From: Streptomyces sp. NBC_00820
GTDB taxonomy: Bacteria; Actinomycetota; Actinomycetes; Streptomycetales; Streptomycetaceae
Direction of reading: 5' to 3'
Assembly: GCF_036347055.1 (NCBI RefSeq)
Contig: NZ_CP108882.1
Span: 1,798,001 to 1,862,000 of the forward strand
Length of the DNA stretch: 64,000 bases
In this document: positions 11,139-57,123 of the stretch, piece by piece
Layout of the letters: each line of letters starts with the position of its first letter
Position numbering within the stretch: position 1 is the stretch's first letter
Made by a program: the position numbers and the translations under genes
The notes under the pieces: generated by a model
What the model saw: the letters and a program-made list of their open reading frames with translations, nothing else
Databases searched by the model: none
Told to the model about the DNA's origin: nothing

Positions 11139-13943
11139 TCACCGGTGCGAGGTGTACTCCACCACCTGCTGGAAGGTGGGCCGGTTCTGCCAGCTGATCC
11201 TGCCGTGCTTGATGCCGCCCAGGGCGCGCTGCACGATCGAGTCGGCGCACCACTGGTCGCCCGCCGAGCACTGGTCGTCGCCCGGGTAGACCTGTGCGGC
11301 AGTGAGGCCGGCTGCCTGCTTCAGGGTGCTGATGAGGATGTCCCGGCAGGAGCCGAGGCTTCCGCCGCCGCAGTACGCCCGCGCCAGGGGACCCTGCACG
11401 GGCTCACCGAGCACCGTCCGGATGTCCTTGTCGACGTAGCTCCACCACCCGTACTGGAAGGAGCTGCCGGCGTGCGAGCCGGTCGGGCCGTGTCCGGCGG
11501 AGGGTGCCTCGTCCACGGGCAGGCCGGCGGTGATCGCGGTGTACAGGTCGGTGCCCAGACCGGGCTCGAACTCCGCCTTCACCAGCTGTGGCCACCAGGC
11601 GTCGAGGACGCGGATCGCGTCGGCGTTGGCGTACGTCTTCGAGCCGGCCGACGTCTCCGTGCGCCTGGCGCCCGCCGCCGCCCAGACCTGGAGCTTGCTC
11701 ACCGCGGCGGCGGCGGTGGGGTCGGTCACCGGTGAGGAGTTGACGACCTTGAGCAACTTGGGCAGCACGTCCTCGGCGCGCAGGTCGGCGAGGGCCGCGT
11801 CCGCCATGGCCTTCGTCAGCGCCGAGCGGGTCACCCCGCCGGCCGCGACCAGCTTCTTCACCCGGTCGTCCAGCAGGTTGCCGCGGTGCACCGAGCCCTC
11901 GCCCCAGGGGGCGGCCGCGTAGTCCTTGGCCTGCTTGTTGTTCCAGGAGACGTAGTAGTCCTGGTCGACGGAGGCGGGGTGGGCTGAGGCCGGGGTGTAG
12001 TCGGCCGTGTTGGTCGCCGGGTCCCAGTTCCGCCACTCGTACGCCTGCTGCCCCCACACGGGGAACTCGGCGTCGACGCCGCTCGCCCGGACCGGGTTGT
12101 CACCGCTGTTGTAGTAGGCGGTGTGCTGGGAGTCGGCGTAGAACCAGTTGAAGGTGTAGTTGATGTGCTGGGCCGCGCTGCGGAAGTCCGCCGGGCCCTT
12201 GACGTAGTCGGGGTCGTTCAGCATCTGGAAGCCGATGATCGAGTCGACTTCGTGCAGGTAGGAGGAGCGCAGGGTGGTGTAGGCGACCTTCTTGCCGCCG
12301 ACGGTCGCGCGGTACTGCACCGGCCCGTACTTCGTGCGCCACACCCGCATCGTGTACGACCCCGCCGCCGTGCCGTCGGCGACGGTCGGCGACCAGGCGT
12401 TCTTCTGCTCGACCTTGTCCATGGCGGTGCAGGTGCCGCGGTAGAGGTAGTGGTAGTCGTCCTGGCACAGTTCGACGGCGTAGGTGTCGATGATGTCCTG
12501 GCCGGACGTGGTGGCGCTCCAGGAGTAGTCCTGGCCTCGGCCGAGTTCGACGTACATGCTCAGGCCGGCGAAGGAGGCTCCGCGGGCGCTGATGCCGGGG
12601 CCCTGGATCTCCTGGAGCATGAGCAGCTGCGGGGCGAAGTAGCCGGTCTGTGGCCCGAACACGGCGACGGGGTGGCCGCTCGCGGTGTGCTTGCCGCTGA
12701 CCACCAGGGCGTTGGACATGCCGCGCCTGGCGGAGCCGAGCGTGGTCCGGGCGGCCGTGGCGGAGGTGCGCCGGGCGCTCGCGGTGGCGGCGCTGCCCGT
12801 GCGGTCGTAGACGAGCGGTTCCCGGGCGGCCGAGCCCGGATCGGGCAGGGCCTCGCCCTGGGCGTCGTCGGGCTTGACGGCGTAGGGGAAGCTCTCGCCG
12901 TCGTGGACGGTGAGGACGGCCTCGGGGTCGTTGCGCTCGCGGAAGGACTCCCAGACCTTGGTGCCCTCCTCCACGCCGTACTTGGACTGGGCGGCGATCA
13001 GGGACAGGGCGTTGTTCACCTCGCCGCCCCCGCCTGAGCCGAAGAGCGAGCCGACGACGGAGGCGAGCGCCACCAGGTCGGTGATCTTGAAGTGGTCGAT
13101 GGTGCCGGCGTTGGTGATGGAGTCCTTGTGGCCGGTCAGGACGTACTCGCCGGGGAAGTAGCGGCCGCTGTCGGAGGCGTCGATGTAGGCGTTGACGCCG
13201 GCGAGGTAGGCGTTCGCGTCGGCGAGGGCCTGCTGACCGCGGGCGCCGTTGCCGTTGACGGCGCGGTCGATCTGCGCCTGGAGGTCGGCCTCGGTGTAGG
13301 GGGCGTTGCGGTAGAACTCCTGCTCGAGGCCCTGGTTGGAGGGGGCGCCGCCGGCGAAGGCCGTCAACTGGCCGCGGCCCACGTGCCGGAAGACGTCCAT
13401 GAGCCAGAGCCGGTCCTCGGCGGCCGCGTAGCCGGCGCCGAACTCGGTGCCGTACCGGGTGGTGCCCGTGATGTGCGGCACGCCGGCCTTCTTGTCGCGG
13501 ACGATGGTCACGTCGGTGCGGCCGGCGGGCTTCTCGGTGGAGGCGACCTGGTCGGTGGCGACGCCGAAGGAGGCGTCGTTGAAGAAGGTGCTGATCTTCG
13601 CGTCGGTCAGGCCCTGGTAGCCGGTGGCGAGGTTGGCGTAGGGGCCGAGCTGGTCCTCGGCGTGCGTGGGCTGGGTGCCGAAGACCTGGTTGAGCAGGAT
13701 CTGGGCGAGGGTGGCGTTGCCGTTCTCGCCGGGCGGCAGGATGTCCGAACACTGGCCGCCGCAGTAGTCGTTCGAGGCGGTGGCGCCCTGCGCGGTGGCG
13801 CCCTGCGCGGCGGCGGCCTGGGTGAGCGGGGAGAGAAGACCGGCGATCAGAACGCAGACGGATGCCGTCTTCAGGAACCCGGAGAGCTTGCGGGGAGTTC
13901 TCAGTGCGTCGAGCAACACGTTGCGTGGGGTGCGCCGTGCCAT
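11139..13943 (-). CDS. Secreted penicillin-acylase-family amidohydrolase
   Basis: A 934-residue Ntn-hydrolase precursor. An Arg-rich n-region and hydrophobic stretch (VCVLIAGLLSPLTQAAAAQG) form the signal peptide. The alpha-chain contains DVTIVRDKKAGVPHITG and YAAAEDRLWLMD. The autoprocessing site is RRGM before SNALVVSG, which puts the nucleophile Ser at residue 410. The beta-chain contains VFGPQTGYFAPQLL. The family hydrolyses amide-linked acyl groups (penicillins, acyl-homoserine lactones, lipopeptides). It is longer than typical AHL acylases (about 800 residues), partly from an Ala/Arg-rich linker before the cleavage site. Upstream of ATG 13943 is a clear GGAGG. Nothing nearby fixes the substrate. 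Confidence 0.85.
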   Translation of the reverse strand: MARRTPRNVLLDALRTPRKLSGFLKTASVCVLIAGLLSPLTQAAAAQGATAQGATASNDYCGGQCSDILPPGENGNATLAQILLNQVFGTQPTHAEDQLGPYANLATGYQGLTDAKISTFFNDASFGVATDQVASTEKPAGRTDVTIVRDKKAGVPHITGTTRYGTEFGAGYAAAEDRLWLMDVFRHVGRGQLTAFAGGAPSNQGLEQEFYRNAPYTEADLQAQIDRAVNGNGARGQQALADANAYLAGVNAYIDASDSGRYFPGEYVLTGHKDSITNAGTIDHFKITDLVALASVVGSLFGSGGGGEVNNALSLIAAQSKYGVEEGTKVWESFRERNDPEAVLTVHDGESFPYAVKPDDAQGEALPDPGSAAREPLVYDRTGSAATASARRTSATAARTTLGSARRGMSNALVVSGKHTASGHPVAVFGPQTGYFAPQLLMLQEIQGPGISARGASFAGLSMYVELGRGQDYSWSATTSGQDIIDTYAVELCQDDYHYLYRGTCTAMDKVEQKNAWSPTVADGTAAGSYTMRVWRTKYGPVQYRATVGGKKVAYTTLRSSYLHEVDSIIGFQMLNDPDYVKGPADFRSAAQHINYTFNWFYADSQHTAYYNSGDNPVRASGVDAEFPVWGQQAYEWRNWDPATNTADYTPASAHPASVDQDYYVSWNNKQAKDYAAAPWGEGSVHRGNLLDDRVKKLVAAGGVTRSALTKAMADAALADLRAEDVLPKLLKVVNSSPVTDPTAAAAVSKLQVWAAAGARRTETSAGSKTYANADAIRVLDAWWPQLVKAEFEPGLGTDLYTAITAGLPVDEAPSAGHGPTGSHAGSSFQYGWWSYVDKDIRTVLGEPVQGPLARAYCGGGSLGSCRDILISTLKQAAGLTAAQVYPGDDQCSAGDQWCADSIVQRALGGIKHGRISWQNRPTFQQVVEYTSHR

Positions 13944-14201
13944 GGCAGCTCCTCCCGACGGGGGTGGGCCGGACGTTACCGCCGGTATCCCCGGGAGAGA
14001 AGATGAACATGCGTCAACTTCCTTGATGACTTGGCCCGGTGGCTCCCGGCGGTCAACCCGGGGTGCCTTATGGGAGGCATCGGAATTCGGATGGAGCCGG
14101 ATCGTGTGTCGATACGTCTACTGGGCGACGTCGCGTGGAACCCGTACGACGACGCCGAAGTGACCGAAGTACGGACGCAGGTGTGACGGAGGTGCAGGGC
14201 G

Positions 14202-14804
14202 ATGGCCGGATTCCGAAGTCTGGCGAGACAGGTGCGGGACGCGCGATGCGATCTGGCGCTGCGGCGCTACTCACTGCGCAAGTGTCTGGAGCGGTTCGCT
14301 CCCTATGGACACCGCGCGACCTGGGACCACCTGTGCGCCCGGGCCGGTTTCGGCCCGGAGGACCGCTCCCCCGACCCGGCGCGGCTCGTGGCCGCACTGG
14401 AGGAGCTGGAGGAGGCGCGCGCCGTATGGCTGGCCTACGAGTCCGATTTCGCGGAACGCCGGAGGAAGGAGAAGCACGACGGGCTGCGCCGGCCGGGCAG
14501 CGTGGACGACTGGCACCGGATGACCTGGGGCGGCTTCGGGGTCGCCTGGTGCGACGACCCGGAGGTCCACCCCGGCGCACCGCTCGCCGAGGTGCTGCGT
14601 CGGCTGATAGCGGCACTGGAGCGTGAGCCGGACTCGGTCTGTCCGGTGTGCGGCGGGGAGCGCCTGGTGTGGACGTACGGCCTGGACCACGACCCGTCCG
14701 CCGGCCCGGTCTGCGCGGACTGCGGCATCCTCGTGCCCCGGCCGGTGCTGACACCACAGGCGCTGGCGTTCGCCAGGCGTGAACGGCTGCTGATGTCGGC
14801 CTGA
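14202..14804 (+). CDS. Zinc-ribbon-containing hypothetical protein
   Basis: A 200-residue soluble, basic protein, not recognised. The C-terminal third has CPVCGG, then about 20 residues, then CADCG, a likely zinc ribbon. The middle is rich in Trp and acidic residues (VWLAYESDFAERRRKEK; DDWHRMTWGGFGVAW). The N-terminus is Arg-rich (ARQVRDARCDLALRRYSLRK). The start at 14202 has GGAGGTG upstream at slightly long spacing. It stands alone between a secreted acylase and a pseudogene. Zinc-ribbon proteins of this kind often bind nucleic acid or protein, but no function is proposed. Confidence 0.7.
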   Translation: MAGFRSLARQVRDARCDLALRRYSLRKCLERFAPYGHRATWDHLCARAGFGPEDRSPDPARLVAALEELEEARAVWLAYESDFAERRRKEKHDGLRRPGSVDDWHRMTWGGFGVAWCDDPEVHPGAPLAEVLRRLIAALEREPDSVCPVCGGERLVWTYGLDHDPSAGPVCADCGILVPRPVLTPQALAFARRERLLMSA

Positions 14805-48250: not shown

Positions 48251-48685
48251 ATGCAGACCTTACGTATCAAGACACCTTCACGAGACGGCGCCGACGACGA
48301 CGCCGGGCGAGTGCGGCCGGGTCCGGGGAGGAACCTGTCACCGCTGCTCGCGGGGGCCGCGACGGCCGTCGGCGCAGCCGGTGCGCTGCTCGCGCTCACC
48401 GACTCCGACTGGCCGCTGCGCGGTCCGTTCGCCCTGTTCTTCCTGCTCGCCACGCCGGCGGTCGCGATCGCCGCGGCCCTGCGCGGACTGGATCCGTTCG
48501 GTCGGGCGGTCGGCGCACTTGCGGGCGCGGTCGCCCTGGACATGCTGGTCGCCCAGGGCATGCTGGCCGTGCACCGCTGGTCGGTCCGCGGCGGAGTGCT
48601 CGCGGTGACCGTGCTCAGCCTGCTCCTGCTCGCCGGCTTCCTCGCGCGGGGGAAATTCAGTTCGAAGAAACACCCGCAAGAGTGA
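48251..48685 (+). CDS. Small multi-pass membrane protein of unknown function
   Basis: A 144-residue protein with an Arg/Asp-rich N-terminus and four hydrophobic segments (LLAGAATAVGAAGALLALT; FALFFLLATPAVAIAAAL; AVGALAGAVALDMLVAQGML; VLAVTVLSLLLLAGFLA), ending in a Lys-rich tail. The ATG at 48251 is chosen at the natural edge of the N-terminal region; the longer frame upstream is improbable. No family is recognised. It precedes the glycan operon on the same strand, but 393 bp separate them, so a shared role is only possible. Confidence 0.6.
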   Translation: MQTLRIKTPSRDGADDDAGRVRPGPGRNLSPLLAGAATAVGAAGALLALTDSDWPLRGPFALFFLLATPAVAIAAALRGLDPFGRAVGALAGAVALDMLVAQGMLAVHRWSVRGGVLAVTVLSLLLLAGFLARGKFSSKKHPQE

Positions 48686-49078: not shown

Positions 49079-49900
49079 ATGAGTTCAGTTCTGCGCCCGC
49101 CCAGTTCGGGCAAGGATCCGTCGATCGCCGCCCACTACCGGCCGATCTCCTCGCATCTCGCGATCACTCCGCCGGTGAGCGTGGTGATCCCCGCCATGAA
49201 CGAGGCCGAGAACCTGCCCTACGTCTTCAAGACGCTGCCGCCCTGGATCCACGAAGTGGTGCTGGTGGACGGCAACTCCGCCGACGACACCGTCGAAGTG
49301 GCCCGCTCCCTGTGGCCGGACGTGAAGGTCGTCGAGCAGCAGGGCAAGGGCAAGGGGGATGCCCTGATCACCGGGTTCGAGGCGTGCAGCGGCGACATCA
49401 TCGTGATGGTCGACGCCGACGGCTCGGCCGACGGCAACGAGATCGTGTCGTACGTCTCCGCGCTGGTCTCCGGCGCCGACTTCGCCAAGGGCTCACGCTT
49501 CGCCAACGGCGGCGGCACCGACGACATGACCTTCATCCGCAAGCTCGGCAACTGGGCTCTGTGCACGGTCGTCAACCGCAAGTTCGGCGCCCGCTACACC
49601 GACCTGTGCTACGGCTACAACGCGTTCTGGCGGCACTGCCTCGACAAGATCGACCTCGACTGCACCGGCTTCGAGGTCGAGACCCTGATGAACATCAGAG
49701 TGGTCAAGGCCGGGCTGAAGGTGCAGGAGATCCCCAGCCACGAGTACCTGCGCATCCACGGCACGAGCAACCTGCGGGCCGTGCGCGACGGGCTGCGGGT
49801 GCTGAGGGTGATCCTCGGGGAGCGTTCCAACCGGCGCGCCCTGCGCCGCCGCATCCGCCAGGCACGGCTGCTGAACACCGGGCGGGGAGAGGTGTCTTGA
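49079..49900 (+). CDS. Family 2 glycosyltransferase (dolichyl-phosphate-mannose-synthase-like)
   Basis: A 273-residue GT-A enzyme with no transmembrane segments. VSVVIPAMNEAENLPYVF opens the fold, VLVDGNSADDTVEVA binds nucleotide, and IVMVDADGSADG holds the DxD metal motif. KGSRFANGG and LCYGYNAFWR complete the DPM-like pattern. It would load a sugar onto a polyprenyl phosphate carrier or start a repeat unit. The gene is first of a run of four whose ends overlap, and its stop overlaps the next start (TTGA). ATG 49079 is chosen; longer frames begin in the leader. Confidence 0.85.
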   Translation: MSSVLRPPSSGKDPSIAAHYRPISSHLAITPPVSVVIPAMNEAENLPYVFKTLPPWIHEVVLVDGNSADDTVEVARSLWPDVKVVEQQGKGKGDALITGFEACSGDIIVMVDADGSADGNEIVSYVSALVSGADFAKGSRFANGGGTDDMTFIRKLGNWALCTVVNRKFGARYTDLCYGYNAFWRHCLDKIDLDCTGFEVETLMNIRVVKAGLKVQEIPSHEYLRIHGTSNLRAVRDGLRVLRVILGERSNRRALRRRIRQARLLNTGRGEVS

Positions 49901-50967
49901 GAGATCCCGGCATCTCCGTCGTGATCTGTGTGTACACCGAGGACCGCTGGGAGGACATCCTCGCGGCGGTCTCCTCGGTGCGCGCGCAGTCCTACCCGGC
50001 ACTGGAGACGCTCCTGGTCGTCGACCACAACCCCGCCCTGCTGGAGCGGCTGGCGCGGGAACACAAGGAGGGGGCCGACGTCCGGGTGCTGCCCAACGCC
50101 GGCCCGCGCGGTCTGTCCGCGGGCCGCAACACCGGCATCGCCGCCTCCCGCGGCGAGGTGATCGCCTTCCTGGACGACGACGCCGTGGCCGAACGGCACT
50201 GGCTGCGCCGCTTCGCCGAGGGGTACGCCGACCCGCGCGTGATGGCGGTCGGCGGCCGTACGGAGCCGATCTGGGCGTCGGGCCGGCGGCCCGTCTGGTT
50301 CCCCGAGGAGTTCGACTGGGTGGTGGGCTGCACGTACCGGGGCCTGCCGCCCGGCCGGGTCCGGGTCCGCAACGTCCTGGGCGGCAACGCCTCCTTCCGC
50401 CGTACGGCGTTCGAGGTGGCGGGCGGCTTCGCGACCGGCATCGGCCGCGACGGCGACCGGCGCCCGCTGGGCTGCGAGGAGACGGAGCTGTGCATCCGCC
50501 TCACCCGCGCCCGTCCCGACGCCGTACTGCTGATCGACGACCGCGCGGTGATCCACCACCGCGTGCCCGCACCCCGCGAGCACTTCGCCTACTTCCGTAC
50601 CCGGGCCTACGCCGAGGGCCTGTCCAAGGCCCTGGTCGCCCGAAGTGTCGGCGCCGACAAGGGACTTGAGTCCGAGCGCCGGTACGCCACCCGGGTGCTG
50701 CCCGCGGGCGTGGCGCGCGGCCTGCGCGACGCGCTGCTCGCCCGCCCCGGTGGCGCGGGCCGCGCGGGCGCGATCGTCGCGGGGGTGCTGACGGCGGCCG
50801 GCGGTTACGTGGTGGGGACCGTGCGGGCACGGCGCGGCACGACGGAGTTCACCGTGGCGCCGATCGGGGCGTCGACGGCCCCGGACGGCCCGGGGCGGGA
50901 GCCCGCGGGGGACCCGACGGAGCGCGCCGCGGTGCGCGGCGCCGAGGCCGAGGAGGCGGGGGCATGA
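49897..50967 (+). CDS. Family 2 glycosyltransferase
   Basis: A 356-residue GT2. GISVVICVYTEDRWEDILAA opens the nucleotide-binding domain, then LVVDHNP, AGRNTGIAASRGEVIAFLDDD with the metal-binding aspartates, and a C-terminal acceptor domain (NVLGGNASFRRTAF; GCEETELCIRLTRA; HHRVPAPREHFAYF). The C-terminus has a low-complexity Ala/Glu/Arg tail. It starts at a TTG that overlaps the preceding stop by 4 bp, with GAGAGG upstream. It probably adds a later sugar to the repeat unit started by the upstream enzyme. Confidence 0.85.
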   Translation: MRDPGISVVICVYTEDRWEDILAAVSSVRAQSYPALETLLVVDHNPALLERLAREHKEGADVRVLPNAGPRGLSAGRNTGIAASRGEVIAFLDDDAVAERHWLRRFAEGYADPRVMAVGGRTEPIWASGRRPVWFPEEFDWVVGCTYRGLPPGRVRVRNVLGGNASFRRTAFEVAGGFATGIGRDGDRRPLGCEETELCIRLTRARPDAVLLIDDRAVIHHRVPAPREHFAYFRTRAYAEGLSKALVARSVGADKGLESERRYATRVLPAGVARGLRDALLARPGGAGRAGAIVAGVLTAAGGYVVGTVRARRGTTEFTVAPIGASTAPDGPGREPAGDPTERAAVRGAEAEEAGA

Positions 50968-51764
50968 ACAGCGCGGCCGTACCGATTCTCATGTACCACG
51001 CGGTCGCCACCGCGCCCAACGACGCCACCCGGGTCCTCTCGGTCGCCCCGGAGGCGTTCGCCGAGCAGATGGCGCTCATCGGCGACCTGGGCATGACCCC
51101 GGTCACCACCGCCGAGCTGGCGGCGCGCTGGCGCTCCGGACGGCCGCTGCCCGCCCGGCCGGTACTGATCACCTTCGACGACGGCTACGAGGGCGTCCAC
51201 CGGCACGCCCTGCCGGTGCTCGCCAAACACGGCTTCCCGGCCACGCTGTTCGTCTCCACCGGCTGGCTCAGGGGCTCCCACGACACAGGGGGCGGCCTGG
51301 ACACCATGCTCGACTGGCCGCAGACGCGTGAACTCGCGGGCTCCGGCGTCGAGATCGGTGGACACAGCCACACCCACCCGCAGCTCGACCAGCTCGACGA
51401 CGTCGCGCTGGAGGCGGAGCTGACGCGGAGCACCGAGATCCTGACCGGTGAACTCGGCACGCGCCCGGTGTCGTTCGCCTACCCGTACGGCTACTCCAGC
51501 CGCCGGGTCCGCCAGGCCGTACGGTCGGCGGGGTACGGCCAGGCGCTCGCCGTCGGCAACGGGCTCGCCCGCCGGCGGCAGGGGCCGTACACCCTGCAGC
51601 GGGTCACCGTCCGCCGCACCACGGGCGTCGAGGAGTTCGAGCGGCTGCTGCGAGGCCGCGCGATCACCCGCACCTTCGCCAGGGACCGTGCCCTCACCAA
51701 GGGGTACGCCCTCGTCCGCAGAACCCGCCAGGTCCGCCGGAAGGCCATCCGTTCCCGTGTCTGA
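50964..51764 (+). CDS. Polysaccharide deacetylase (NodB domain)
   Basis: A 266-residue carbohydrate-esterase-4 protein. PILMYHAV opens the domain, VLITFDDGYEGV carries the catalytic base and metal Asp, GHSHTHPQL supplies the two His ligands, and FAYPYGYSSRRVR follows. The C-terminus is Arg-rich. It would remove N-acetyl groups from GlcNAc-type residues of the glycan. It has no signal peptide, so it may act on the lipid-linked unit inside the cell. ATGA overlaps the upstream gene, and 8 bp overlap the next one. Confidence 0.85.
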   Translation: MNSAAVPILMYHAVATAPNDATRVLSVAPEAFAEQMALIGDLGMTPVTTAELAARWRSGRPLPARPVLITFDDGYEGVHRHALPVLAKHGFPATLFVSTGWLRGSHDTGGGLDTMLDWPQTRELAGSGVEIGGHSHTHPQLDQLDDVALEAELTRSTEILTGELGTRPVSFAYPYGYSSRRVRQAVRSAGYGQALAVGNGLARRRQGPYTLQRVTVRRTTGVEEFERLLRGRAITRTFARDRALTKGYALVRRTRQVRRKAIRSRV

Positions 51765-54700
51765 CACGACCACCGCAACCGAGGCCGCGACGCCCGAGCC
51801 CGAGACGGCCGACCGGCCGGGGCGCCGCCTCCGCCTGCCCGGCATGGGCCGGCCGGGCGGCAGCCAGCTGTTCCGCAACGCCTACGCGCTGATGCTCAAC
51901 ACCGGCATCTCCGCCGTCCTCGGACTCGGCTTCTGGCTGGCCGCGGCGCGTTACTACTCCGAGTCGGCGGTCGGGCAGGGCTCGGCCGCCATCGCCGCGA
52001 TGAAACTGCTCGCCGGGCTGACCGCGGTGACCCTGACCGGCGCCCTGGCCCGCTTCATACCGGTGGCCGGACGGCGCACCGGCCGCCTCATCTTCGGTAC
52101 CTACGCCTGCAGTTCACTGGTCGTGGCGCTGGCGGCGGGGGGCTTCCTGCTGACGCTGAACGCGTGGGGGCCGTCGTACCGGTTCCTGCACGGGCCGCTC
52201 AACGGGCTCGGGTTCGTCGCGGCCGTCGTCGCGTGGAGCCTGCTCACCCTCCAGGACGGCGTGCTGACCGGACTGCGCAACGCGCCCTGGGTGCCGGTCG
52301 GCAACACCGTGTTCTCGGCGGTGAAGCTGGGGCTGCTGGTCGCGTTCGCCGTGGCCATCCCGGCCACCGGTGTCTTCGTGTCCTGGGTCGCCGCGATCGC
52401 CACCTCGGTGGTGCCGCTGGGCTGGCTGGTGTTCCGGCGGCTGGTGCCCCGGCACGTCCGGGCGACCGCGGGCCACACCAAGCCGCCGACGGTCCGGGAG
52501 ATCGGCAGGTTCCTCGCCGGGGACTACACCGGCTCGCTGTTCTCCCTCGCCGTGGTCTACCTCGTCCCGGTGATCATCGCCTCGCAGGTCAGCTCCGAGG
52601 ACAACGCCTACTTCTACATCACCACCACCATCGGCGGCACGACCAACCTGCTCGCCATCAACATGGGCGCCTCCCTGACCGTGGAGGGCTCGCACGAACC
52701 GGGACGGCTGGCCGCCGACACCCGGGCCGCGCTGAAGCGGATGGCCCGGATCATGCTGCCGATCGCGGCCGTGCTGTTCATCGGCGCGCCCTGGATCCTG
52801 GGCGTGTTCGGCGCGGGCTACGCGGACGCGGCGACCCCGCTGCTGCGCTGGTTCGCGGTCGGCGCGGTGCTGAGGGTCGTCATGGAGACGCACTTCGCGG
52901 TGCTGCGCGCACAGAGTCGTACGGCCGGACTCGCCTGGCTCCAGGGCCTGTTGTGCGTGCTGGTGCTCGGCCTGACCCTGCTGCTCCTGCCCCGGATGGG
53001 GCTGACCGGCGCGGGCGTCGCCGAGATCTCCAGCCTCGCGGTGATCGTGGCGATCGCCGCGCCGAAGCTGTGGAAGACGATCCGGTCCGTCCCCGCCGAC
53101 GTTCCCCGGGCGGTGGCACCGGACGGAGACCTCGCCGACCTCGGGGCGCGCGAGAAGCCGTCCGGCCCGTCGGCGCGCCGGCGCGGTCCGTCCTGGGCGC
53201 TGGACAACGACACCCTCGCGCTCGGCATCCCCGTCGACTTCGACCACGTCGAACGCCGGCCGGACGTACGCCCCGGACCCGGCACACCGCCCACCGGCAC
53301 ACCCCTGCGGCGACTGCCCGCCGAACAGCCGGAGCCGGGCACGGAGGCGTCCACGAGCCCGGGCCTGCCGTCACCGAGGGCCGGCACGGAGGCCCGCAAC
53401 GGAATCGGCGCCGGAATCGGCACCGGCTTCGGCACTGAAGCCGGAACCGGCGTCGGAGCCGGAGCCGCAACCGGAGCCGGAGCCGCAACCGAGATCGACG
53501 CCGCGGCCGAAGTCGACGCGGGGGCCGCCGCGAAGGAGGTCGACGCGCCCTTCGAGGAAGCCGGGCCCGCGACGGCCGGGAAGGAACGACGCGCGCCCGC
53601 CGCCACGCCGGAGGACGGGACCGTACCCGGCGGGCCGGTCTCCCCCGCGCGTACCCGCCGGACGCCGACCCGTTCCGGAGTCGTCCTCGGCTGCCTGCTG
53701 ATCGCCGCGCTGCTGCTGTACTGGGTGCCCGCGCTGCGCCTCGGCGACGCGGACCTGGACCGGATGGGCGGCCTCGGGCTGGTCTCCGTGCTGCCGTTGC
53801 CGACGCTGGTCGGGGCCGCGCTGCTGATCACGGTGTTCGCCTCGCTGCTCTGGCTGCGCCGCGAGCACCGGGCGCTGCTGCTGATCACGCTGCTGGCGAC
53901 CGTGGTGTCCCTGCATGCGCTGCCCGCCGTCATCGAGACCGAGCCCCGGTTCCCGACGGCCTGGCAGCACCTCGGCTTCATCGACTACATCGACCGCACC
54001 GGGTCCGCCGTACCGGACCTGGACGCCCGCTGGAGCTGGCCAGGCTTCTTCGCGGTGGCCGCGTTCGTCGGCCGGACGTGCGGTGTCACCGACTTCACGG
54101 AGATCATCCGCTGGTGGCCGACCGCGATCCAACTGGCCTATCTGGCACCGATGTTCCTGCTGACCCGCTCCCTGCGGGCGAGCTGGCGAGCCAAGTGGAC
54201 CGGCGTGTGGCTCTTCGTGCTGTGCGGCTGGGTCGGCCAGGACTACTTCTCCCCGCAGGGCTTCACGTATCTGCTGTACCTCGCCTTCGTGGCGATCCTG
54301 CTGGTCTGGTTCCGTGCCCCGCACGTGATCTGGAGCAGGTTCCGCCCCGGCGAGGCCGAGGTGGAACCCACCGGCCGGCGTCAGCGGGCCGTGCTGCTGC
54401 TGGTGCTGACCGGTCTCTTCGCGGCATCCGTCCCGGCCCACCAGCTCACGCCGTTCGTGATGCTGGGCGTCCTCGCGGTCCTGGTCCTGCTGCGCCGGTC
54501 CGAACTGCGCGGCCTGCCACTGCTGTTCGCGGTCGTGGTCGCGGCCTGGGTCGGGTTCATGGCGGAGCCGTACTGGTCCGGGCACTTCGACGATCTCTTC
54601 GGCGGGGTCGGCGGGGTCGGCAGCAATGTCTCGACCTCCGTCTCCGGCCGTATCCAGGGCGGCAGTTCGACCCACAAGCTGGTCCTGTACACCCGGGTGC

Positions 54701-55674
54701 TGCTGGCCGGCTCGGTGATGGCGTTCGCCTGCTGGGGCTGGTGGCGCCGGCGGGAGAACAAGTACCGCGAGCGCTCGCTGCTGGTGCTCGCCTTCGTGCC
54801 GTTCCTGGGCTTCGGCATGCAGTCGTACGGCGGCGAGATGGCGCTGCGCGTCTTCATGTTCGCGCTGCCGGGCGCGGCCCTGCTCGGCGCGCTCGCCCTT
54901 TTCCCGCGCACCGGCGTCACCGCGAAGGAGCGGGAGCGGGACCGGGCGAGCCTCGCCCCGCTGGCCGCGCTGCTCGCCGGGCTGCTGCTCATGGGCGGCT
55001 TCCTGGTGGCCCGGTGGGGCAACGAGCCGTTCGAGCGGGTCCGGCCCGGCGAGGTCGCGGCGATGAACTGGGTGTACGCCCACGACAAGCCGACCGTACG
55101 CCTGCTGTGGCTGAGCAACGACACGGTGAACGACGTGACCCCGGCGCTGCCGTGGGGCGCGCGGGACATGGAGCGGGTGGACTACCTGCCGACGCAGGCG
55201 CCGGTCGACCCGGTGCTGGTGTCGGGCCTGGTCAAGGCGCTCAAGGACGCGGGCCCGAACTCGTATCTGATGGTCAACGAGAGTCAGGCCACCTATCTGC
55301 GGCTGGACGCGGGTTACCCGACGAGCTGGGAGTCGCGGCTGATCCGCAACCTGGACGACCGGCAGGAGCTGACGAAGGTCCTGGTCAACGACGACGTCTC
55401 CGTGTACACGATGCGTGCGCGGCCGGCGGGCGCGGTGCCGCAGGCGGATCCGGGGCCGATCGGGCCGCAGGTGACGTGGACCCCGTGGTCGGTGGTGGGC
55501 GCTCTGGCCGCCGTCGCGCTGATCCTGCTGCTCACCGCGCGTGAGCTGGTCCGTGTCGCGGAGCCGCCGAGTGTGCGCCGGCTGCGTCGGCTGCAGGGCG
55601 GGTTCTGGTTCTCGCTGCCGCTGCTCGCGGTGTTCCTCGCCTCGCTGGTGCAGCGGTTCCTGACCATGAAGTGA
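51757..55674 (+). CDS. Fusion of a Wzx/MurJ-like flippase with a polymerase-like membrane domain
   Basis: A 1305-residue protein starting at GTG 51757 inside the deacetylase stop region. Residues ~30-450 are a polysaccharide flippase: NAYALMLNTGISAVLGLGFW, YYSESAVGQGSAAIAAMKLL, YFYITTTIGGTTNLLAINMG and IMLPIAAVLFIGAPWILGVF fit 12 helices. Residues ~450-640 are a hydrophilic linker with a Gly/Ala/Thr-rich low-complexity core (about 548-615). From ~641 there are another ten or so helices with large external loops (RFPTAWQHLGFIDYIDRTGS, WVGQDYFSPQGFTYLLYLAF, GQ/GG-rich FGGVGGVGS, SYGGEMALRVFMFALPGAAL), like a Wzy polymerase or ArnT-type glycosyltransferase-C. No frameshift is seen in the linker. 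Confidence 0.8.
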   Translation: MSDTTTATEAATPEPETADRPGRRLRLPGMGRPGGSQLFRNAYALMLNTGISAVLGLGFWLAAARYYSESAVGQGSAAIAAMKLLAGLTAVTLTGALARFIPVAGRRTGRLIFGTYACSSLVVALAAGGFLLTLNAWGPSYRFLHGPLNGLGFVAAVVAWSLLTLQDGVLTGLRNAPWVPVGNTVFSAVKLGLLVAFAVAIPATGVFVSWVAAIATSVVPLGWLVFRRLVPRHVRATAGHTKPPTVREIGRFLAGDYTGSLFSLAVVYLVPVIIASQVSSEDNAYFYITTTIGGTTNLLAINMGASLTVEGSHEPGRLAADTRAALKRMARIMLPIAAVLFIGAPWILGVFGAGYADAATPLLRWFAVGAVLRVVMETHFAVLRAQSRTAGLAWLQGLLCVLVLGLTLLLLPRMGLTGAGVAEISSLAVIVAIAAPKLWKTIRSVPADVPRAVAPDGDLADLGAREKPSGPSARRRGPSWALDNDTLALGIPVDFDHVERRPDVRPGPGTPPTGTPLRRLPAEQPEPGTEASTSPGLPSPRAGTEARNGIGAGIGTGFGTEAGTGVGAGAATGAGAATEIDAAAEVDAGAAAKEVDAPFEEAGPATAGKERRAPAATPEDGTVPGGPVSPARTRRTPTRSGVVLGCLLIAALLLYWVPALRLGDADLDRMGGLGLVSVLPLPTLVGAALLITVFASLLWLRREHRALLLITLLATVVSLHALPAVIETEPRFPTAWQHLGFIDYIDRTGSAVPDLDARWSWPGFFAVAAFVGRTCGVTDFTEIIRWWPTAIQLAYLAPMFLLTRSLRASWRAKWTGVWLFVLCGWVGQDYFSPQGFTYLLYLAFVAILLVWFRAPHVIWSRFRPGEAEVEPTGRRQRAVLLLVLTGLFAASVPAHQLTPFVMLGVLAVLVLLRRSELRGLPLLFAVVVAAWVGFMAEPYWSGHFDDLFGGVGGVGSNVSTSVSGRIQGGSSTHKLVLYTRVLLAGSVMAFACWGWWRRRENKYRERSLLVLAFVPFLGFGMQSYGGEMALRVFMFALPGAALLGALALFPRTGVTAKERERDRASLAPLAALLAGLLLMGGFLVARWGNEPFERVRPGEVAAMNWVYAHDKPTVRLLWLSNDTVNDVTPALPWGARDMERVDYLPTQAPVDPVLVSGLVKALKDAGPNSYLMVNESQATYLRLDAGYPTSWESRLIRNLDDRQELTKVLVNDDVSVYTMRARPAGAVPQADPGPIGPQVTWTPWSVVGALAAVALILLLTARELVRVAEPPSVRRLRRLQGGFWFSLPLLAVFLASLVQRFLTMK

Positions 55675-55692
55675 CGGGGGCGGGGTGGCTCC

Positions 55693-57123
55693 TCAGCCGT
55701 CACGGCGGTCGAGCCACTTCACCTCGTACGCGCCCATCGTGAACCGCTTCCCGTCGACCTGGGCGGTGATCGGCCGGTCGAGGGTGTTCACCACCATCAG
55801 CGTGGTGCCGCTCGCCAGGACCCGCACGTTGGGTACGTCGTCCGGGGCGACGGACACGTTCTCGTACCGGGTGCCCGGCGGGAAGGCCTTGCCGAACCGG
55901 GACACCAGGTCGTACATGGGCAGTGGTTCGCCCCCGCCGGTGCTGCCGGTCGGCGTCCACAGGCAGCCCGGGCAGTCGCGTCCCTTCTCCTCCTCCGGGT
56001 TCCAGTAGAAGCCGGAGTCGGCGCCGCCCTTGACCATGGCGATCAGCGCGGTGGCGTGCACGGCGCGCCGGTGGGCCTCGGACCAGCCCTTGCGGTCGTC
56101 GTTGCCGTCGGCGGGCTCGACGTAGTACTCCGCCCACCACAGGGGCAGGTCGTGGGTCTGCGACCGCACCCACTCGCTCACCGCGGTCAGCTTGCCGGTG
56201 GCCGCGAACTCGTCGGGCAGCAGCTCGTCGTCGTTGGTGTAGCTGGAGCCGTCGACGACCACGAAGTCGGCGCCCGCCTTGTGGGTGTTCCAGTAGCCGA
56301 AGGCGTCGAGGACCCGCTGGTCCATGGCGCCCCAGGCCCCCCGCAGTTCGGTGGAGGCGTCGTCCTGGCGCGGGTCGACGCTGTCCATGACGAGGTAGGG
56401 GCCGCCGACCATGATGCCCGGGTCGACCTTCTTGAGCGCCTTGTGGACGAGGTTGTACATCGCCGTGTAGCCCTCGTAGTCCCAGCGGCCCTTGGCGTTG
56501 TTCCAGAAGCCCTTGAACTCGTTCCAGACGACGAAGTGCCGTACGTCGGGATAGCGCCGGGCGACGGTGGCCGCGAGGTCGGCGAAGTCCTGGTAGTGGT
56601 CCGGGGTCGGCGCGGTCTCCAGGGCCGACTGGCTCCAGTCGGTGTTGCCGACGCCGGCCCGGCCGCCCTTCATCCAGTCCGGCGAGCAGCACAGCGTGAC
56701 CACGGGGGTGCCGCCCGACTTACGGATGAAGTCGATACGGCGGTCCATCGCACCGAAGTCGTAATGCCCCTTCACCGGCTCGGGATTGTCGGCGCCCCAG
56801 CCCATGAGGGCCTGGTCCTGCGGCAGGCCGCCGCTCTTCGCCAGCAGCCCCTCGACGCGCTCACCGGCCGCGCCGCTGCCCTGGTCGGCGCTGTACTGGG
56901 TATGGGTGAAGCCCCAGCCCACGGACGGGTCCGGGCGCTGCGCGGGCGTGGCGGGCGTGCCGTGCACCTGGTCGCCCTGACGCGTGGTGCCGTCGGTGCC
57001 CGTGTCCGTCCCCGGCAGCGTGCCGATCAGGGTCACCACCAGGGCCAGCGCGATCGCGCCCACCCCGAGCAGGGCGGTGAGCCGCCACCGCCGAGCCCCC
57101 GTATACCACTCATGACGTCCCAT
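55693..57123 (-). CDS. Membrane-anchored glycoside hydrolase (GH39/GH5-like)
   Basis: A 476-residue protein. A short basic N-terminus and one helix (LTALLGVGAIALALVVTLIG) anchor it outside the cell. The catalytic domain is a TIM barrel with GWGFTHTQYSADQG at the start, the acid/base Glu in HFVVWNEFKGFW and the nucleophile Glu in LPLWWAEYYVEP. A final beta domain ends FTMGAYEVKWLDRRDG. It is of the clan-A type used for xylosides or other external glycans. It lies 18 bp past the end of the fusion gene, on the opposite strand, so it is likely the matching surface-glycan hydrolase, though that is inference. Confidence 0.8.
   Translation of the reverse strand: MGRHEWYTGARRWRLTALLGVGAIALALVVTLIGTLPGTDTGTDGTTRQGDQVHGTPATPAQRPDPSVGWGFTHTQYSADQGSGAAGERVEGLLAKSGGLPQDQALMGWGADNPEPVKGHYDFGAMDRRIDFIRKSGGTPVVTLCCSPDWMKGGRAGVGNTDWSQSALETAPTPDHYQDFADLAATVARRYPDVRHFVVWNEFKGFWNNAKGRWDYEGYTAMYNLVHKALKKVDPGIMVGGPYLVMDSVDPRQDDASTELRGAWGAMDQRVLDAFGYWNTHKAGADFVVVDGSSYTNDDELLPDEFAATGKLTAVSEWVRSQTHDLPLWWAEYYVEPADGNDDRKGWSEAHRRAVHATALIAMVKGGADSGFYWNPEEEKGRDCPGCLWTPTGSTGGGEPLPMYDLVSRFGKAFPPGTRYENVSVAPDDVPNVRVLASGTTLMVVNTLDRPITAQVDGKRFTMGAYEVKWLDRRDG

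Follow-up and report, generated by a model that had tools for sequence, protein, structure and literature searches.

A candidate Streptomyces glycan-assembly locus encoding a flippase and an apparent GT-C transferase on one chain

In a 64,000-nt stretch of the genome of Streptomyces sp. NBC_00820 (GCF_036347055.1, NZ_CP108882.1, positions 1,798,001-1,862,000 of the forward strand; hereafter the window, to whose positions all coordinates refer), we analyzed a compact locus encoding two glycosyltransferases (GTs) of the GT2 family, designated GT1 and GT2, a NodB-type deacetylase, a 1305-residue membrane protein, and a facing glycosidase. The N-terminal part of the 1305-residue protein (N-half) is, by sequence comparison, a MOP/Wzx-type flippase, and the structure predicted for its C-terminal part (C-half) suggests an enzyme that transfers sugars and has an oligosaccharyltransferase fold. 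The best explanation for the whole, to which we assign a probability of roughly two in three, is that a lipid-linked disaccharide is built and deacetylated inside the cell, flipped by the N-half, and transferred outside by the C-half. Many Streptomyces encode a flippase and an apparent GT-C transferase on one chain, so that membrane crossing and outside attachment may be performed by one machine.

The coupling between flipping and outside transfer is, to our knowledge, an unsettled matter in glycan assembly. Fusions that occur in nature hint at the partners that work together, and a single polypeptide allows the coupling to be tested by cutting the linker. An earlier reading of this DNA (the original prediction) knew of no characterized single-chain example, and we likewise found no description of a flippase-GT-C or Wzx-Wzy single chain, or of the product of this locus, in the literature searched (top-ranked results, with few subscription papers). 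The locus is a candidate surface-glycan or glycoprotein system of Streptomyces.

The one-chain protein and its two halves

The original prediction had described four overlapping genes with a membrane-anchored glycosidase facing them, and one protein with two halves and a low-complexity linker; the reading frames, gene overlaps, and Pfam families confirmed these observations. Both halves lie in one open frame without a stop in the window and in all 78 named loci that hold both, the named loci being the best 80 of 521 and hence close relatives. Homologues of the 1305-residue protein numbered 1198 at E<=1e-3 among 8000 candidates scored. Identity is 77-88% for the 120 homologues listed, of which 117 cover 97-100% of the query and three cover 51-55%; all those carrying an organism name are from Streptomyces. 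Linker length ranges from 56 to 390 residues across the 78 loci. The linker is rich in Pro, Ala, Glu, Arg, and Gly, contains no transmembrane (TM)-like stretch in any locus, and changes faster than any other part of the protein (mean pairwise identity 0.58; for the halves, 0.87 and 0.83). At the gene level, the fusion is genuine and not a product of chance.

As a whole, the protein stays below every Pfam and NCBIfam cut-off. In the window, the N-half matches PelG (2.5e-06) at 27.1 bits, just under the cut-off of 29, and Polysacc_synt matches 10 of 18 aligned N-half members. Additionally, hhalign paired the N-half profile over residues 33-447 with a same-genome protein (99.8%, E 7.6e-29) that is itself above the Polysacc_synt_3 cut-off. 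When the N-half alignment was used as a profile against the PDB, no match was obtained at E 0.1, and the assignment to the Polysacc_synt/MOP family therefore draws on Pfam and hhalign. Transport of a lipid-linked sugar is its predicted function.

The original prediction had proposed structure prediction of the halves, and the AlphaFold model of the C-half (m5d92291fa9ea; predicted local distance difference test score, pLDDT, 84.5; predicted template modelling score, pTM, 0.88) has a GT-C fold. Residues 69-595 of the model match GT-C enzymes in a structural fold list of 50 rows, with the oligosaccharyltransferase kind (STT3/AglB rows) on top, ArnT above the Emb rows, and PMT also among the matches. 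The C-half is modelled with a GT-C membrane core, extracytoplasmic loops, and a C-terminal domain. Wzy and O-antigen ligases are absent among the 50 rows shown, an absence that is in itself no exclusion. A PDB profile search with the C-half returned a designed protein as its one match (E 1.4). NCBIfam gave no match for the C-half, and over 44 members Pfam gave five single weak matches (best E 0.011), none to a Wzy or ligase family. In the C-terminal domain, a WWD(x)G motif marks N-oligosaccharyltransferases (STT3/AglB/PglB) as their usual Asn-sequon site; WWD was present in 0/40 and 0/44 C-half rows (overlapping sets), so that this site is missing from the C-half. The C-half defines a widespread GT-C family that neither Pfam nor NCBIfam names.

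Joining of the two halves was also found elsewhere. Among 33 further loci analyzed (up to 20 kb each, some of them truncated at contig ends), flippase and C-half share a chain in four (L024, L026, L178, L184), and in two (L030, L188) the C-half is fused to a GT2 domain and Wzx is not part of the chain. The original prediction proposed a search for split orthologues; the C-half stands alone in 26 of the 33, and that of L025 has its N-terminal end at a contig end. Flippase and C-half genes are neighbours in L179, L180, L182, and L183, overlapping by 4 bases in L179, L180, and L183, and they are neighbours in three of five further phylum-sample loci. The C-half tree requires at least 4 changes of the Wzx-GT-C joined state, and 6 for any joining; gain and loss are indistinguishable in these counts, and L025 was scored as unjoined. 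A single clade of the fused Streptomyces rows plus L178 was rejected by the approximately unbiased test (p 0.0152; the group was named after the tree had been seen, and branches are long). The topology of the N-half tree, built by a quick method, is not identical to that of the C-half tree. The fusion was apparently made more than once, in several domain orders.

Companion enzymes and the proposed route

GT1 matches Pfam Glycos_transf_2 (4e-21), and its best NCBIfam model is AglJ (137.9 bits, below the cut-off of 325). Among solved structures in the PDB, DPM synthase 5mlz is its best match (1.9e-21), followed by ArnC (6.3e-08). GT1 thus resembles polyprenyl-phosphate sugar synthases (AglJ, DPM synthase, ArnC) in type, a likeness that does not extend to the substrate. 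GT2, analyzed over 49906-50964 without its first three codons, also matches Glycos_transf_2 (3.7e-24), and its best NCBIfam model is AglG (222.4 bits, below the cut-off of 440); it resembles AglG, which adds a further sugar onto a dolichol-phosphate sugar. Together, the two enzymes point to a polyprenyl-monophosphate carrier.

The NodB protein matches Polysacc_deac_1 (5.7e-29) and deacetylases in the PDB (2.9e-17). Its metal and base residues D72, D73, H134, and H138 are conserved in every one of the 78 loci that could be matched among the 80. Since no signal peptide is visible at its start, it likely works inside the cell, before flipping. The glycosidase belongs to the family Glyco_hydro_39 (2.5e-07; 30.3 bits, over the cut-off of 26) and matches beta-xylosidase 4ekj in the PDB (1.3e-06). 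Its residues E202 and E332, which we take to be the two catalytic Glu of GH39, are likewise invariant in the 78 of 80 loci that were matched.

The locus combines a GT-A enzyme akin to polyprenyl-phosphate sugar synthases with a flippase and a GT-C in the same place, as expected of a multi-component transmembrane glycosylation system, and transfer of a lipid-linked sugar to an extracytoplasmic acceptor is predicted. In the order and direction that we propose, GT1 would load a sugar onto polyprenyl monophosphate, GT2 would attach a second sugar to it, and the cytoplasmic deacetylase would unmask an amino group of the sugar while it is still lipid-linked. The carrier would then be flipped across the membrane by the N-half, and the C-half would pass the glycan to an acceptor such as a cell-wall polymer, an exopolysaccharide, or a protein. 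The flexible linker, taken as cytoplasmic, may tether flippase to transferase and so deliver the flipped donor locally, and the GH39-type enzyme would act on the product by trimming or remodelling it.

A wider proposal is that actinobacteria repeatedly fused a new GT-C resembling oligosaccharyltransferases to a flippase and, in certain lineages, to a cytoplasmic glycosyltransferase as well. The resulting one-chain flip-and-transfer machine would serve a bacterial route of the AglJ/AglG/AglB type, in which a polyprenyl-monophosphate amino-sugar disaccharide is transferred en bloc by direct hand-over from flippase to transferase. We put this forward tentatively and consider it less likely than not.

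Alternative readings and known systems

Several results weigh against the route of building, flipping, and transfer. Neither GT1 nor GT2 reaches the equivalog cut-offs of the AglJ, AglG, ArnC, and PpgS models, and their substrates are therefore left unassigned. GT-C transferases usually carry a catalytic acidic residue in the first outside loop; no column of that loop in the C-half is acidic in 80% of 40 rows, and D199 is D in just 30 of the 40. A small membrane protein encoded upstream of GT1 matches no Pfam family. Of the 33 other loci, 27 showed Wzx, 18 a GT1-type enzyme, 16 a GT2-type enzyme, 18 NodB, 6 GH39, and 13 GNAT, and the route is slightly weakened because loci at greater distance frequently yielded no GT1, GT2, or NodB. 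Finally, 14 of the 78 linkers carry an in-frame start preceded by a Shine-Dalgarno (SD) sequence among their last 60 codons, compared with 0 of 390 N-half stretches; this background differs in composition from the linker, which keeps the comparison from being decisive.

Such starts would fit two proteins arising from the 1305-residue frame by translation or cutting, with a fusion that has no functional meaning, and the rapid change of the linker and the many solitary C-halves point the same way. However, the frame is kept in 78 of 78 loci despite the great range of linker lengths, no SD-preceded start lies in the scanned stretch of 64 of them, and joining also occurs in other lineages; we consider this explanation quite unlikely. 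The original prediction had read the protein as a Wzx-Wzy fusion in which the C-half polymerizes flipped repeat units into exopolysaccharide. A Wzx-type N-half, two GTs, a deacetylase, and a glycosidase do look like an exopolysaccharide locus, and GH39 within such a locus has a precedent in PslG. The Wzx half of that interpretation stands, on Polysacc_synt, PelG, and hhalign, whereas the polymerase half finds little support: the C-half model matches GT-C enzymes of the oligosaccharyltransferase, ArnT, PMT, and Emb kinds, and neither Pfam nor NCBIfam gives a Wzy family. Moreover, the locus holds no PF02397 initiator, one copy of which lies about 1.2 Mb away in the genome (the WecA/TagO type was not searched, and initiators can lie elsewhere). 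The interpretation is thus partly supported, and we regard polymerization by a Wzy-type C-half as very unlikely.

Emb enzymes add lipid-phosphate-derived units one by one, and a C-half of this kind would add many units successively, building a chain outside the cell. The top rows of the fold list are oligosaccharyltransferases, with ArnT ranking above Emb, and single cannot be told from multiple transfer by sequence; we consider such a polymerizing GT-C unlikely. Alternatively, the C-half might be a divergent oligosaccharyltransferase that places the lipid-linked disaccharide en bloc onto secreted proteins, as the equivalent in bacteria of the AglJ/AglG/flippase/AglB route in Haloferax. The lack of WWD, and so of the usual Asn-sequon site, speaks against it, while the best NCBIfam scores of GT1 and GT2 and the top position of STT3/AglB favour it. 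Assembly on dolichol phosphate and transfer by AglB, as described for Haloferax (PMC3871713), also agree with it. Overall, we consider this reading rather improbable.

The proposed route shares parts with several known systems. The ArnC-ArnD-ArnE/F-ArnT pathway is alike in its lipid-phosphate sugar synthase, flippase, and GT-C, and ArnC and ArnT are among our matches. In this lipid A modification, a NodB-type enzyme works on the lipid-linked sugar before flipping. The Arn pathway uses a small flippase, one sugar, and separate proteins, whereas the Streptomyces locus has a MOP-type flippase. The small membrane partner in the Gac system of Streptococcus pyogenes is known as GacJ. That system (GacI, GacK, GacL) is the closest described by parts (PMC8035078): a GT-A enzyme in the cytoplasm that works with a distinct membrane protein, a Wzx-type flippase, and a GT-C transferase are proposed there, with a lipid-phosphate sugar donor as proposed for our locus. 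Gac consists of separate proteins and handles one sugar, N-acetylglucosamine (GlcNAc), whereas in the Streptomyces locus flippase and GT-C are fused and are accompanied by a further GT as well as a deacetylase and a glycosidase.

By enzyme similarity, the closest is the Agl route of Haloferax volcanii (AglJ, AglG, AglR, AglB), which (PMC3871713) builds its glycan on a polyprenyl monophosphate, as proposed for our locus, and shares the transferase of oligosaccharyltransferase fold in addition to the GT1/GT2 matches. Our locus differs in being bacterial, in its fused flippase and transferase, and in its C-half without WWD. The three-component pentofuranose system on which GT136 was founded also combines a polyprenyl-phosphate donor, a flippase, and a GT-C; its transporter is modelled with four TM helices, its proteins are separate, and the likeness is drawn from its description (PMC11127046). 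In Actinoplanes missouriensis, two of four exopolysaccharide clusters are needed for normal sporangia (PMC13390465). Its wps and gsf clusters are, like our locus, actinomycete surface-glycan loci with GT2s and flippases, one with a deacetylase; they encode separate Wzx and Wzy or a GtrA protein, and are likened here by description. A text search for 'fus' found nothing in the sections of PMC13390465 available.

Gene layout, distribution, and further loci

The gene order of GT1, GT2, NodB, N-half, and C-half with the facing GH39 gene is complete in 73 of the 80 named loci (features of the window are given in Table 1). Four lack GT1 and GT2 in the available DNA, one of these also lacking GH39, and one more lacks GH39; L067 and L088 hold only C-half and GH39, a contig start cutting before the N-half. 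The original gene list omitted the small membrane-protein gene on the plus strand, which is kept in 73 of the 74 named loci holding GT1; the protein is a candidate partner of the lipid-sugar synthase. Near relatives often have a GNAT gene (48/74) or a subtilase gene (42/74) close by, and neither was matched within the window.

Table 1. Features of the locus, by position in the 64,000-nt window
Feature	Position	Strand	Basis or remark
Small predicted membrane protein, 144 aa, ~4 TM	48251..48685	+	tblastn of L036 orthologue, 78% identity at 48251-48682
GT1, GT2-family enzyme	49079..49900	+	ATG start
GT2, GT2-family enzyme	49897..50967	+	TTG start; 4-base overlap with GT1
NodB/CE4 polysaccharide deacetylase	50964..51764	+	4-base overlap with GT2
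Fused flippase / apparent GT-C transferase, 1305 aa	51757..55674	+	GTG start; 8-base overlap with NodB; no internal stop
N-half, residues 1-460, MOP/Wzx-type flippase	51757..53136	+	Pfam and hhalign
Linker, ~residues 461-630	53137..53646	+	Pro/Ala/Glu-rich, length-variable, no TM
C-half, residues 631-1305, predicted GT-C fold, extra N-terminal helices, two C-terminal TM helices	53647..55671	+	AlphaFold model
Membrane-anchored GH39-type glycosidase	55693..57123	-	Convergent with operon; Pfam GH39

The C-half family matched 28 of the 61 genomes in the relatives sample, at E<=1e-3 109/197 of the order sample (searched with a single-protein query) and 52/296 of the class sample, and 12 of the 246 in the phylum sample; the samples overlap and each includes the own genome. 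Near orthologues (>=65% identity) occur in 14 of the 37 same-genus genomes of the relatives sample, own genome included.

Other combinations of these parts were observed. Three-part chains uniting cytoplasmic transferase, flippase, and outer transferase were found as Wzx-GT2-GTC in two genomes (L024, 6758-11086; L026, 8720-12991) and as GT2-Wzx-GTC in one (L184, 3946-7881, with its GT2 domain confirmed). In a second kind of Streptomyces cluster, Wzx carries a C-terminal piece weakly resembling the C-half (L027, 5441-7606; L028, 13077-15188; L029, 6215-8629; L033, 10965-13223), matching within the first 242 of 610 C-half profile positions at 11-32 bits each, and a full, separate C-half gene lies nearby. 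L030 encodes a Wzx with a C-terminal APH-type phosphotransferase domain (11900-14305; residues 539-720) adjoining its GT2-GTC fusion, and L195 (4477-6276) encodes GT2 and a NodB deacetylase in one protein, another fusion of neighbouring steps. A same-genome DUF2206 protein was considered as kin of the C-half and not supported (hhalign 2.4%); the short aligned stretch has a similar SH..T. The same genome holds a second locus (L040, G000:C1:408001-428000) with GT1-like and NodB-like proteins, a Wzx (Polysacc_synt_3), and a DUF2206 membrane protein, which is perhaps another multi-component system.

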